Assembly: GCA_020444545.1 (NCBI GenBank) | Contig: JAHLKT010000002.1 | Span: forward strand, 1-64,000 | DNA length: 64,000 nt | Direction: 5' to 3' | From: Desulfarculaceae bacterium | GTDB lineage: Bacteria; Desulfobacterota; Desulfarculia; Desulfarculales; Desulfarculaceae | Shown: one piece after another, positions 3,726-36,475 of the stretch | Layout of the letters: each line of letters starts with the position of its first letter | Position numbering within the stretch: the first letter of the stretch is position 1 | The notes under the pieces: generated by a model | What the model saw: only the letters and a program-made list of their open reading frames with translations | Told to the model about the DNA's origin: nothing | Databases searched by the model: none | Translations under genes and position numbers: made by a program

Positions 3726-4610
3726 TCAGGCCGTACGGGGTTCCGGATCGGGTTCGGGCTCCGGATCCGGATCGGGTTCGGGCTCGGAGGGGGCCTCCGG
3801 GGCTGCTTCCTCGGTGGGCTCGGGCTCGGGGGCGGCAGCCTCCTCCGCCGCGGCCTCCTGGAGCTCGGGGGACGCGGCGGCCTGATCGCCCTCGGGCTGG
3901 GGCGGCTCCAAAAGGGGCTTGCGCACCGGCTGGCGGGCCACGGCGGCGGCCTCCTCCAGCACCTTTTGCTCCGCTTCGCTCAGGGGCTTAAGCGGGGTCT
4001 CCAAGGGGATGAGATCGTCCAGGGAGGGAGCGGCGGGCACGCCCAGGGGCAGGCCCGGGGCTTCGTCGTCGGTGGGGTCGCCGTCGATGCCGGCCAGGTT
4101 CTCCAGCTCCTCCACGGTGGGCAGGTCCTTCAGGTCCTGAAGGTCGAACACCTCCAAAAAGCGGCGGGTGGTGGAGTAGATCAGAGGCTTGCCGGGCAGG
4201 TCCTTGCGCCCCGCCACCCGGATGAGGCCCTTTTCCATGAGGGTGCGCAGGATGCCGCCCACCTCCACCCCGCGGATGCGCTCCACCTCGGCCTTCAAGA
4301 CCGGCTGCTTGTAGGCCACGATGGCCAGGGTCTCCAGGGCGGCCTTGGACAAGCGGGTGACCTGCTGCTTGCGGAGCTTGCGCAGCCAGTAGGCCAGGTT
4401 GGGCTTGGTGCGGAAGCTGAAGCCGCCGGCCACGGCCACCAGCTCGAAGGAGCGCTCCATTTGCTGGTACTCCTCGATCAGCTGGTCCAGGGCCTCCTTG
4501 ACCGCCGCCCGGTCCTCGGCCTCCATCACCTGGCAGATCTGGGCCAGGCTCAGGGGGCTGTCCGAGACGAACAGCAGCGCCTCCACGATTCTTTTGGTGT
4601 CCCGGCTCAA
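3726..4610 (-). CDS. scpB: Segregation and condensation protein B
   Basis: About 294 residues. ScpB binds ScpA and SMC and controls chromosome condensation and partition. Residues about 1-185 hold the two winged-helix domains (RIVEALLFVSDSPLSLAQI; ETLAIVAYKQPVLKAEVERIRG; GLIRVAGRKDLPGKPLIYSTT). The rest is a long acidic, Pro/Glu/Ala-rich tail ending in alternating Pro-Glu and Pro-Asp, so the protein exceeds the usual length near 200. The proposed start is TTG at 4610, overlapping the scpA stop as TTGA. An upstream ATG at 4667 lies deep within scpA and is unlikely. GGGAGAGCGAGG precedes the TTG. Confidence 0.9.
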   Translation of the reverse strand: MSRDTKRIVEALLFVSDSPLSLAQICQVMEAEDRAAVKEALDQLIEEYQQMERSFELVAVAGGFSFRTKPNLAYWLRKLRKQQVTRLSKAALETLAIVAYKQPVLKAEVERIRGVEVGGILRTLMEKGLIRVAGRKDLPGKPLIYSTTRRFLEVFDLQDLKDLPTVEELENLAGIDGDPTDDEAPGLPLGVPAAPSLDDLIPLETPLKPLSEAEQKVLEEAAAVARQPVRKPLLEPPQPEGDQAAASPELQEAAAEEAAAPEPEPTEEAAPEAPSEPEPDPDPEPEPDPEPRTA

Positions 4611-32533: not shown

Positions 32534-33169
32534 ATGTCCGCCGCGCCCGCCGGTCCCAGCCTGGTCCGGGAACGCTCTTTGGCGCGCTCGGGCCATCGTT
32601 TGGTGGCTGGGACGGACGAGGTGGGGCGCGGCTGCCTGGCCGGGCCGGTGGTGGCGGCGGCGGTTGTGCTGACCGACCCCTGGCCCGTGCGCGGAGTCAA
32701 CGACTCCAAGAAGCTGGACCCGGCCAAGCGCCGGGTGCTGGCCGCGGCCATCAAGCAGAAGGCCGTGGCCTGGGCGGTGGCGGGGGCCACCCCAGCGGAG
32801 ATAGACCGTCTGAACATCCACCGGGCCAGCTTGCTGGCTATGCGGCGGGCGGTGAACGCCCTGGCGCCCTCACCGGACTATCTGCTGGTGGATGGGCGTT
32901 TTGTTTTGGAGCTCAGCCTGCCCCAGGAGGCGGTGGTGGGCGGCGACGCCAAGTGCCTGTCGATCTCGGCGGCCTCCATCTTGGCCAAGGTGGAGCGTGA
33001 CGCCCTGATGCAGGCCTGGCACTGGATTTGGCCGCAGTACGGTTTCGCGGGCAACAAGGGTTATCCCACCAAGGATCATCAGCAAGCCCTGCGCGACCAC
33101 GGACCCTGCCCCTTGCACCGCCGCTCCTACGCCCCGGTGGCCCAGCGCTGTTTGGAGCTGGGCTTTTGA
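32534..33169 (+). CDS. rnhB: Ribonuclease HII
   Basis: 211 residues. It cuts RNA in RNA-DNA hybrids and removes misincorporated ribonucleotides. VAGTDEVGRGCLAGPVVAAAV holds the first Asp and Glu of the DEDD site. Further acidic residues lie in YLLVDGRF and the SISAASILAKVERDALM stretch, and YGFAGNKGYPTKDHQQAL is typical of the C-terminus. Its TGA overlaps the yraN start as TTGA. Confidence 0.94.
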   Translation: MSAAPAGPSLVRERSLARSGHRLVAGTDEVGRGCLAGPVVAAAVVLTDPWPVRGVNDSKKLDPAKRRVLAAAIKQKAVAWAVAGATPAEIDRLNIHRASLLAMRRAVNALAPSPDYLLVDGRFVLELSLPQEAVVGGDAKCLSISAASILAKVERDALMQAWHWIWPQYGFAGNKGYPTKDHQQALRDHGPCPLHRRSYAPVAQRCLELGF

Positions 33170-33534
33170 GCCGGCGAGGCGAGGCCCTGGGGCGCGAGGC
33201 CGAGGCCCTGGCCCGGGGCCTGCTGGAGCGGGGCGGGATGCGGGTGGCGGCCAGCCGCCTGCGCACCGGGGGCGGCGAGTTGGATCTGGTGGCCTGGGAT
33301 GGGGCCACCTTGGTGTTCGTCGAAGTGAAGGCCCGGAGCAACCCGGGCCACGGGCGGCCGGAAGAGGCGGTGGATCGCAAAAAGCGCGAGCGCCTCACCG
33401 CCGCGGCCGGGGCCTACCTGGCCGGCCTGAGCGGGCCCGCGCCGGCCTGCCGCTTCGATGTGGTGGCGGTGGATTTCGGCCAAGACGGGCCGGTTGTGCG
33501 CCATCTGCCCGACGCCTTCCGGCCGGGGGACTGA
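33166..33534 (+). CDS. yraN: UPF0102 / YraN endonuclease-like protein
   Basis: 122 residues from TTG 33166, which overlaps the rnhB stop by TTGA; longer starts fall inside rnhB. The sequence has the UPF0102 restriction-endonuclease-like core: RRGEALGREAEALA, GGGELDLVAWDGATLVFVEVK (in parts; Asp and the ExK motif), and an RFDVVAVDF end. Function in bacteria is not settled; a role in DNA processing is supposed. It lies after rnhB and two bases before rsmI, as in many proteobacteria. Confidence 0.88.
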   Translation: MSRRGEALGREAEALARGLLERGGMRVAASRLRTGGGELDLVAWDGATLVFVEVKARSNPGHGRPEEAVDRKKRERLTAAAGAYLAGLSGPAPACRFDVVAVDFGQDGPVVRHLPDAFRPGD

Positions 33535-33536
33535 TC

Positions 33537-34691
33537 ATGGCCAGGCTTTTTGTGGTGGCCACGCCCATTGGCAACCTGGAGGACCTGGGGCCCCGCGCGG
33601 CCCGGGTGCTGGCCGAGTCGCCGGTGGTGGCCGCCGAGAGCGTGGAGCGCACCAAGAAGCTCCTGGCCCATTTGGGCCTGAGCGGCAAGCGGCTGGTCTC
33701 CTGCCGCGAGGCCAACCGCCGCCAGGCCGCGGCCAAGGTGCTGGAGGCTCTGGGGCAGGGCCAGGACGTGGCCCTGGTCAGCGACGCGGGCACCCCCGGC
33801 CTGAGCGACCCGGGTTCGGCGGTGGTGGAGGCGGCCAGCGCCCTGGGCTACGAGGTGAGCCCGGTGGCCGGGCCCAGCGCCCTGGCCGCCGCCCTGAGCG
33901 TGGCCGGTTTCGCCCAGGTGCCGTTCAGTTTTTTGGGGTTCCTGCCGGCCAAGACAGGGGCGCGGCGCAAGCTACTCACCCTGGCGGCGGCCACGGGATG
34001 GACCCTGGCCCTGTTCGAGGGGCCCCACCGCCTGGAGGCCACGGCGCACGACCTGGCCGAGCTGATGGGCGAGCGGCAGGTGGTTATCTGCCGGGAGCTG
34101 ACCAAGCTGCACGAGCAGGTGGTGCGCGCCACCTGCGCGGAGCTGCCCCGGCTCTTGGATGAGCTCCAAGTGCGCGGCGAGTTCACCCTGGTCATCGGGC
34201 CGGGGGAGCCCGAGGGGCCGGACCCGGACGAGGTGGAGAGCCTCATCGACCAGGGCCTGGCCGAAGGCGAGCTCAAACCCAGCGCCCTGGCCAAACAGGT
34301 GGCCGGAGCCACGGGTCTGAACCGCGAGGAAGTTTACCGCCGCATTCTGGCGCGGCGAGATGAAGTGGCCAACGAGGAAGAAGCCGATTCCATGACCCCC
34401 GGCCTTTCAGAAGAAGCCGAGCCCCGGGAACGGGAGCTGGTGGTGGCCAACAGCCTGGGCCTGCACGCCCGGGCGGCGGCCAAAATCTGCGAGACCCTGC
34501 GCCGCTTCGAGGTCGAGGTGGTGCTGGTCAAGGGCGGCGAGGAGGCCGATGCGGCCAGCGTGCTCTCCATCCTGGGCCTGGACGCGCCCAAGGGGAGCCG
34601 GGTGACCGCCCGGGCCACCGGCCCTCAGGCGGCCGAGGCGCTCATTGCCCTGGATGAGCTGTTCGCCGGATTGTTCGGAGAGGGATCTTGA
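33537..34691 (+). CDS. rsmI: RsmI 16S rRNA methyltransferase fused in frame to an HPr domain
   Basis: 384 residues. Residues 1-285 are a complete RsmI (2'-O-methylation of 16S C1402): [49 protein letters not shown], and a C-terminal helical end ([11 protein letters not shown]). Residues about 298-382 are a full HPr phosphocarrier domain with the phosphorylatable His310 in [13 protein letters not shown] and a Ser in [11 protein letters not shown] near the regulatory position. No stop lies between the two. An internal ATG at 34392, with GAGGAAG 11 bases upstream, could also make free HPr of 99 residues. ptsI begins at the stop (TTGA). The fusion is unusual. Confidence 0.9.
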
Positions 34692-36475
34692 GCACGGCCA
34701 AGCAAAAAACCTTGAAGGGCGTGGGCGCCAGCCCGGGCATCGTCATTGGGCGGGCCCTGGTGGTTTCCAAGAGCCCGGTTCGGGTGCCCTACCGGCCGGT
34801 GGCCGGCGGGAGCGAGACCGAGCGCGAGGTGGAGCGCTTTCGGGGCGCCCTGGCCGCCGCCCGCGACGACCTGATCAAGGCCAAAACCGAGTTGGGGCCG
34901 GACCTGGCCGACTACGCCTACATCATCGAGGCTCACCTGGGCATCCTGGGCGACAAGATGATCTCCCAGCGCAGCGAGGACCTCATACGCTCCCAGGGCA
35001 TCAACGCCGAGTGGGCCCTGGGCCTGGCCGAGGCCGAGGCCAAGAGCATCTTCGAGAACGTCAAGGACGACTACATCCGCTCCCGCGCGGCCGACGTGGA
35101 GTACGTGGCCGGGCAGGTGCTCAAGCACCTGGCGGGTAACAACGGCATCGAGCTCTCCACCATCCGCGAGAAGGTGGTGGTGGTGGCCCATGACCTCAGC
35201 CCGGCCGAGACCACCCAGATGGACCTGAGTTGGGTCATGGGCTTTGTCACCGACATGGGCGGGCCCACCAGCCACACCGCCATCATGGCCCAGGCCAAGG
35301 CGGTGCCCGCCGTGTTGGGCCTGGAACGGGTCAGCCAGGTGGTCAAGAGCGGGGACTTCCTCATCGTGGACGGCAGCGCCGGCCAGGTGATCGTCAACCC
35401 CGACGAAGAGACCCTGCACGACTACCGCGACAAGCAGGAGGCCTACGAACTCTACGCCCAAGAGATCCTGGCCCAGGCCCACCTGCCCACCAACACCACC
35501 GACGGCCGCCGCCTGGAGGTGGGGGCCAACATCGAGCTGGCCGAGGAGCTTTCCACCGCGCTCAACTACGGCGCCGAAGGGGTGGGGCTGTTCCGCACCG
35601 AGTTCCTCTACGTGAGCCAGAAGACCCTGCCCACCGAGCAGGAGCTCTTCGCCAACTTCAAATCCGTGGCCCAGCGCCTGAACGGCCGGCCGGTGAACAT
35701 CCGCACCCTGGATATCGGGGGCGACAAGTTCGCCAGCTCGGTGGAGCTGGCCCCGGAGATCAACCCCGCCCTGGGGCTTCGGGCCATCCGCTACTGCCTC
35801 AAGGAGCCGGCCCTGTTCAAGACCCAGCTCCGGGCCATCCTCCGGGCCAGCGCCTACGGCAAGGTGCGGGTGATGTTCCCGCTTATCTCCGGGGTGGGCG
35901 AGCTGTTGCAGGCCCGCGCGGTGCTGGAACAGGTGCAGGCCGAGCTGGCCGACCAGGGACAGGCATTCGACCCCAAGCTGGAAGTGGGCATCATGATCGA
36001 GGTGCCCTCGGCCGTGGCCGTGGCCGACCTGTTGGCTCAGCACGCCGACTTCTTCTCCATCGGCACCAACGACCTGATCCAGTACTCCCTGGCCATCGAC
36101 CGGGTCAACGAGTACGTGGCGCACCTCTACCAGCCCCTGCACCCGGCGGTGCTGCGCATGATCCGCCAGGTGGTGGACGCGGGCCACGCGGCGGGCATCC
36201 CCGTGGCCATGTGCGGCGAGATGGCCGGCGATGCCCGCTCGGTGCCGCTGCTCTTGGGCCTGGGCCTGGACTCGCTGTCCATGAACCCCCTGGCCATCCC
36301 CCGGGTGAAGCAGGTGCTCAGGCTGGCTTCGGCCAAGGAGTGGGGCCGCCTGGCCAAGAGCGCTCTGGGTTTCGCCACCGCCGCCGAGGTGAGCCGCTTC
36401 ATTGAGAAGGAAATGAGCGCGCGCTTCTCCACGGTGCTCGCCGCCCGGGTTCCCTTGCCGGACCACACCGGTTAG
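34688..36475 (+). CDS. ptsI: PTS enzyme I (phosphoenolpyruvate-protein phosphotransferase)
   Basis: 595 residues. EI takes phosphate from PEP and passes it to HPr. N-terminal [14 protein letters not shown], the HPr-binding helices (about 30-140), active-site His196 in [18 protein letters not shown], then the PEP-binding barrel with [40 protein letters not shown] and the Cys in [10 protein letters not shown] are all present. The TTG start at 34688 overlaps the preceding stop (TTGA), so it is coupled to the HPr-bearing gene. No EII sugar-transport component is in the window, so the pair may be regulatory or feed a distant EIIA. Confidence 0.94.

Follow-up and report, generated by a model that had tools for sequence, protein, structure and literature searches.

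RsmI and HPr are encoded as one chain next to ptsI

The window (the whole 64,000-nucleotide stretch of DNA analyzed here) contains on its forward strand, which also carries the other window features given below, a 384-amino-acid open reading frame (ORF; 33537–34691) that joins an RsmI methyltransferase to an HPr phosphocarrier, with zero internal stop codons. The RsmI part (residues 1–276; 33537–34364) corresponds to the 16S rRNA C1402 2′-O-methyltransferase, with 5hw4 and 9pzg as solved relatives. Residues 4–271 score 202.8 bits against the NCBIfam equivalog profile for RsmI (TIGR00096; cut-off 167.9), which places them in that family, and residues 4–203 match the Pfam profile TP_methylase (PF00590; E = 4.8e-31). 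The helix-turn-helix profile RsmI_C aligns to residues 230–274 at 21.2 bits, under its 27-bit cut-off. After an interdomain linker (34365–34427), residues 298–377 (34428–34667) form an HPr domain that scores 76.5 bits against PTS-HPr (PF00381; cut-off 23; 79.3 bits in the genome-wide search) and carries the active-site histidine, His310, within a GLHAR motif. We describe this domain as NPr-like, its best match in the Protein Data Bank (PDB) being NPr (5t17; E = 1.8e-13). The original prediction of an in-frame fusion with an intact HPr is thus borne out.

The CAC codon of His310 (34464–34466) marks the expected site of phosphorylation by enzyme I (EI), equivalent to His15 of HPr, and Ser341 (34557–34559) is the equivalent of the regulatory residue Ser46. 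Both are invariant in 23 aligned fused proteins. They lie 31 residues apart, and His15 and Ser46 of known HPr have the same spacing. The active-site motif reads HARAA rather than the common HARPA (34464–34475); the f1 and f54 relatives that we examined, fused or separate alike, have Ala, Val or Ser at this position.

The fused gene is followed directly by ptsI (34688–36475), which encodes the sole EI of the genome. Its product scores 600.8 bits against TIGR01417 and contains the GGPTSH active-site motif as well as the CGE motif. As predicted, the two genes are directly coupled: the TGA stop codon of the fusion and the TTG start codon of ptsI share four bases as TTGA (34688–34691). The same junction reads ATGA in a relative (locus L033), which supports TTG as the ptsI start. 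Just upstream of the fusion lies a yraN-like gene (33028–33534) from the ORF list, named by sequence recognition and of uncertain true start.

Both domains are conserved around a variable linker

All 23 aligned fusions retain the HPr active site and the RsmI motifs (TPIGNL-type, DAGTPG, GPSA and PHR). The linker varies among them in both length and sequence. In four species pairs of the window's genus, g1, dN/dS is 0.20–0.35 for RsmI and 0.12–0.38 for HPr, values that indicate purifying selection on both domains. For the short linker it is 0.28–0.76, exceeding both flanking domains in three of the four pairs.

An AlphaFold2 model shows the complete strand and helix order of HPr after a disordered linker (pLDDT below 50 at residues 281–293), with His310 right before the first helix. 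The model has a pTM of 0.56 and gives no fixed domain orientation. Its whole-chain RMSD to 9pzg and 5hw4 is about 14 Å, compared with about 2 Å for single RsmI halves. Because the two RsmI halves are poorly placed relative to each other, although single domains are sound, we took no domain contacts from this model.

The fusion is shared by part of its own family

Within the family of the source genome (f1), the fused frame is open in all eight g1 species, the window included, in g3 and in all five scorable g7 species, one of the five g7 loci being truncated by the end of its contig. Two species of g4, together with g2, g5 and g6, carry rsmI and hpr as distinct neighboring genes in different frames, with ptsI following. 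Close relatives with two clearly separate genes had been named as a refutation; those of the latter four genera date the fusion and do not refute it. The other refutation named was a sequencing error that conceals a stop codon or frameshift near 34370–34400. Nothing that we found favors this or an assembly error, and because the same frame is open in many independent genomes (14 in f1 and 13 in a second family, described below), we reject this explanation, to which we assign next to no probability.

Two side observations concern loci in f1 and its class. In g7, genomes G013 and G016 (loci L044 and L047) differ by a dS of 0.00–0.11 over the linker, HPr and ptsI versus 0.25 over the RsmI part. 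This far lower divergence downstream suggests that a recombination breakpoint lies close to the rsmI/hpr junction. In relatives from family f4 of the same class (for example, G054:C251:7612–7848 and G025:C194:2186–2446), HPr lies inside open frames of 800–950 residues, and of 1375 residues in one case, which are probably multiphosphoryl-transfer proteins.

The same fusion recurs in a distant family

A profile of the fused protein, run against 395 genomes of the phylum, gave stop-free full-length matches only in f1 and f54, among the score-ordered matches listed. Family f54, which includes strain NaphS2, is distant from f1. Searching 46 of its genomes and reading the loci revealed the fusion in 13 species from six genera (g200, g264, g266, g268, g271 and g273) and separate rsmI and hpr genes in 17 examined species. 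Separate neighboring rsmI and hpr genes also occur in families f12, f22, f25, f38 and f56. Because separate neighbors are found across several families, the gene order must be old, and the fusion came later and more than once.

In a tree of RsmI and PtsI sequences, parts of which are poorly resolved, the fused state needs five changes, gains or losses, of which strongly supported branches force four. Together with the occurrence of the same fusion in the distant family f54, this tree indicates that the fusion arose repeatedly, with at least four changes of state. Among the matches listed in a wider scan of genome contigs, absence of the fusion from other phyla has weak support. In a plasmid collection, the 30 best matches were to RsmI only.

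In NaphS2 (L093, about 3835–3846) and at locus L094, the rsmI stop codon TGA, a TAA and the ATG of hpr follow one another directly in one frame. Loss of the stops alone would suffice to fuse these genes, and readthrough would also yield a fusion; we regard this layout as a putative pre-fusion arrangement.

A candidate internal start may yield additional free HPr

An in-frame ATG in the linker (34392–34394), preceded by GAGGAAG (34374–34380), had been proposed to allow production of free HPr. Both elements are present, and all eight g1 species have a start codon at the equivalent position (three ATG and five GTG) while the surrounding linker has changed. Elsewhere in f1, candidate starts are found as GTG at −26 in all five g7 species and as ATG at −21 in g3. 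These patterns are what would be expected of nested genes, with most working HPr made free from ATG 34392 (GTG in relatives) and the fused form a by-product or minor species. The retention in g1 is not statistically compelling, however, because few changes are needed within a genus.

The ribosome-binding signal is ordinary. GAGGAAG ends 11 nt upstream of the ATG and has a duplex energy of −5.9 kcal/mol, which makes it a weak to moderate candidate Shine–Dalgarno sequence; 30% of the other internal ATG and GTG codons of the same gene equal or beat this value. Across g1, energies at the candidate start (−2.9 to −6.5 kcal/mol) fall within the range of the background of other internal ATG and GTG codons (mean −4.2, s.d. 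2.5) and are mostly weaker than those at the rsmI (−6.1 to −8.6 kcal/mol) and ptsI starts. Shine–Dalgarno energies thus did not split candidates from background, and we rejected them as a decisive signal; the comparison is low in power, because weak sites are also frequent ahead of separate hpr genes.

Family f54 offers evidence in both directions. Where hpr is a separate gene, it mostly begins 15 codons ahead of the active-site His. Among fused species, G322 and G412 have GTG and G458 has ATG at this old start codon, with a strong Shine–Dalgarno sequence (−10.3 kcal/mol) in G322. The codon is AAA in G449 and CTG in G441, and the remaining g264 species, g266 and g271 have other non-start codons there, which speaks against nested genes. 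In G449 and G441, no ATG, GTG or TTG occurs 8–50 codons before the HPr His and no second HPr was found in their fragmented assemblies (92% and 89% complete), so these two presumably make HPr only as a fusion. Incomplete assemblies could hide a second copy, and a non-standard start is conceivable, for example at the CTG that occupies the ancestral start position of G441.

Because the start codon at ATG 34392 is kept in all eight species, extra free HPr in g1 is possible but unproven, and the proposal survives in part: the start is conserved, whereas its Shine–Dalgarno sequence is unexceptional and some fused relatives lack such a start. Nested genes with mainly free HPr are a real contender to which we assign somewhat less than an even chance.

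The fused HPr is the only HPr of a probable regulatory-type PTS

The window lies on contig C2 (4.38 Mb) of a genome, G000, estimated to be 100% complete. Genome-wide profile searches identified one HPr, one RsmI and one EI N-terminal domain, all at the fusion locus, and found no second copy of any of them. The genome also encodes a single EIIA of the fructose/Ntr type (PF00359; C2:527327–527752) and a single EIIA-man (C2:526043–526381), both ~0.5 Mb from the fusion on the same contig. The initial statement that no EII components were visible is therefore correct within the window and incorrect for the genome as a whole. Of the two EIIC families covered, PF02378 and PF03609, neither was found in G000. 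Neither G000 nor any of 18 relatives has an HPr kinase (PF07475) match over the family cut-off, and the matches that fell below it were short, at about 40–55 positions; Ser46-type control by this kinase is accordingly not expected, although Ser341 is kept.

The surroundings of the EIIA genes (L057; G000:C2:517000–536000, outside the window) include rpoN-like and hpf-like genes, EIIA-Ntr and EIIA-man, near pgk and tpi, with no EIIB, EIIC or EIID in view. We take the neighbors of the EIIA genes in G000 to include Hpf-like and RpoN-like genes, and those in relatives to include RapZ and an acetyltransferase, in each case by sequence recognition. The presence of EIIA-Ntr and EIIA-man, in a genome in which neither those two EIIC families nor HPr kinase was found, marks this system as being of the nitrogen PTS (PTS-Ntr) type. 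Phosphate should therefore pass from EI through the fused HPr to EIIA-Ntr and EIIA-man in a regulatory, PTS-Ntr-like chain, in keeping with NPr as the best PDB match of the HPr domain. The described nitrogen PTS (EINtr–NPr–EIIANtr; PMC13104625) shares with this locus the NPr-closest HPr, an EIIA-Ntr beside rpoN- and hpf-like genes and the lack of a detected EIIC. It differs in that the EI encoded here has no GAF domain match and adjoins the fusion, and in that NPr elsewhere stands alone, as a protein of about 90 residues.

A two-function protein is the favored interpretation

Judging from sequence, we consider it likely that the locus encodes a two-function protein, produced from an rsmI–hpr–ptsI operon, in which RsmI for 16S rRNA C1402 carries the cell's only HPr on its C terminus and the two work side by side. 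The ancestral state would have been a tightly packed rsmI–hpr–ptsI operon, and the fusion would have formed when rsmI lost its stop codon, or its frame changed slightly, at least once in f1 and several times in f54. The HPr half would accept phosphate on His310 from the neighboring EI and hand it on to EIIA-Ntr and EIIA-man, with no role in sugar transport. The two halves, joined by a flexible linker, would most likely act alongside each other, and translation coupling would keep HPr and EI in proportion. The fusion itself, its conservation, two intact domains, their single copies and the gene order are observed; from these we infer that cells accumulate the fused chain and that it retains both activities. 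The start codon kept at the ancestral position in g1 fits this account less well, as it would be expected of dual products.

Such a fusion would be tolerated because an HPr domain can function as part of a larger protein, as it does in the known multiphosphoryl-transfer fusions of the PTS (FPr/FruB, DhaM and EIIA–HPr–EI; PMC2405797), in which an HPr domain within a longer chain is still a phosphocarrier. There, HPr is joined to its PTS partners EIIA and EI; here, the partner is an rRNA methyltransferase and EI is a separate ORF, which sets this protein apart from that class. The fusion may be favored because it ties HPr translation to that of ptsI. Its recurrence from a permissive gene order favors the fusion of convenience that had been suggested.

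Alternatively, phosphotransfer state could be linked to ribosome methylation, as had also been suggested: RsmI activity or access to the ribosome might change when the tethered HPr is phosphorylated or binds EI or EIIA, such that phosphoenolpyruvate (PEP) or nitrogen status tunes C1402 methylation. The fusion recurs independently and joins two single-copy functions, and RsmI takes the assembled 30S subunit as its substrate (PMC5053481; structure 9pzg), where a bound HPr–EI complex could interfere. The variable linker, with no sign of a conserved interface, argues mildly against such coupling, as do the lack of a fixed orientation in the model and the fact that sister genera manage without the fusion; we consider it unlikely. 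Quite improbable, in our estimation, is the bolder form, in which PEP or nitrogen status, acting through the phosphorylation state of the tethered HPr, has direct control over methylation of the P-site nucleotide C1402, as a metabolism-to-ribosome switch selected repeatedly in the phylum.

The fused protein has the same full RsmI domain set as E. coli YraL and the solved structures (PMC5053481, 5hw4 and 9pzg), including the TPIGNL and SDAGTPG motifs. Solved RsmI chains stop after the C-terminal RsmI region and have no HPr, whereas this one continues into it. We found no description of an RsmI–HPr fusion in the openly accessible literature, in agreement with the initial impression that this was not a familiar architecture; the single paper to mention RsmI, HPr and fusion deals with a different topic. 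The word 'methyltransferase' is absent from the main text of a 2008 PTS survey (PMC2405797).

A ribosome-modification enzyme and a central phosphocarrier, each in its only copy, have been joined in one chain several times over. This suggests that HPr tethered to an unrelated protein can stay functional, and it provides a natural test case for whether PTS state can couple to ribosome modification. For annotation, such genomes may appear to lack HPr or to encode an oddly long RsmI.
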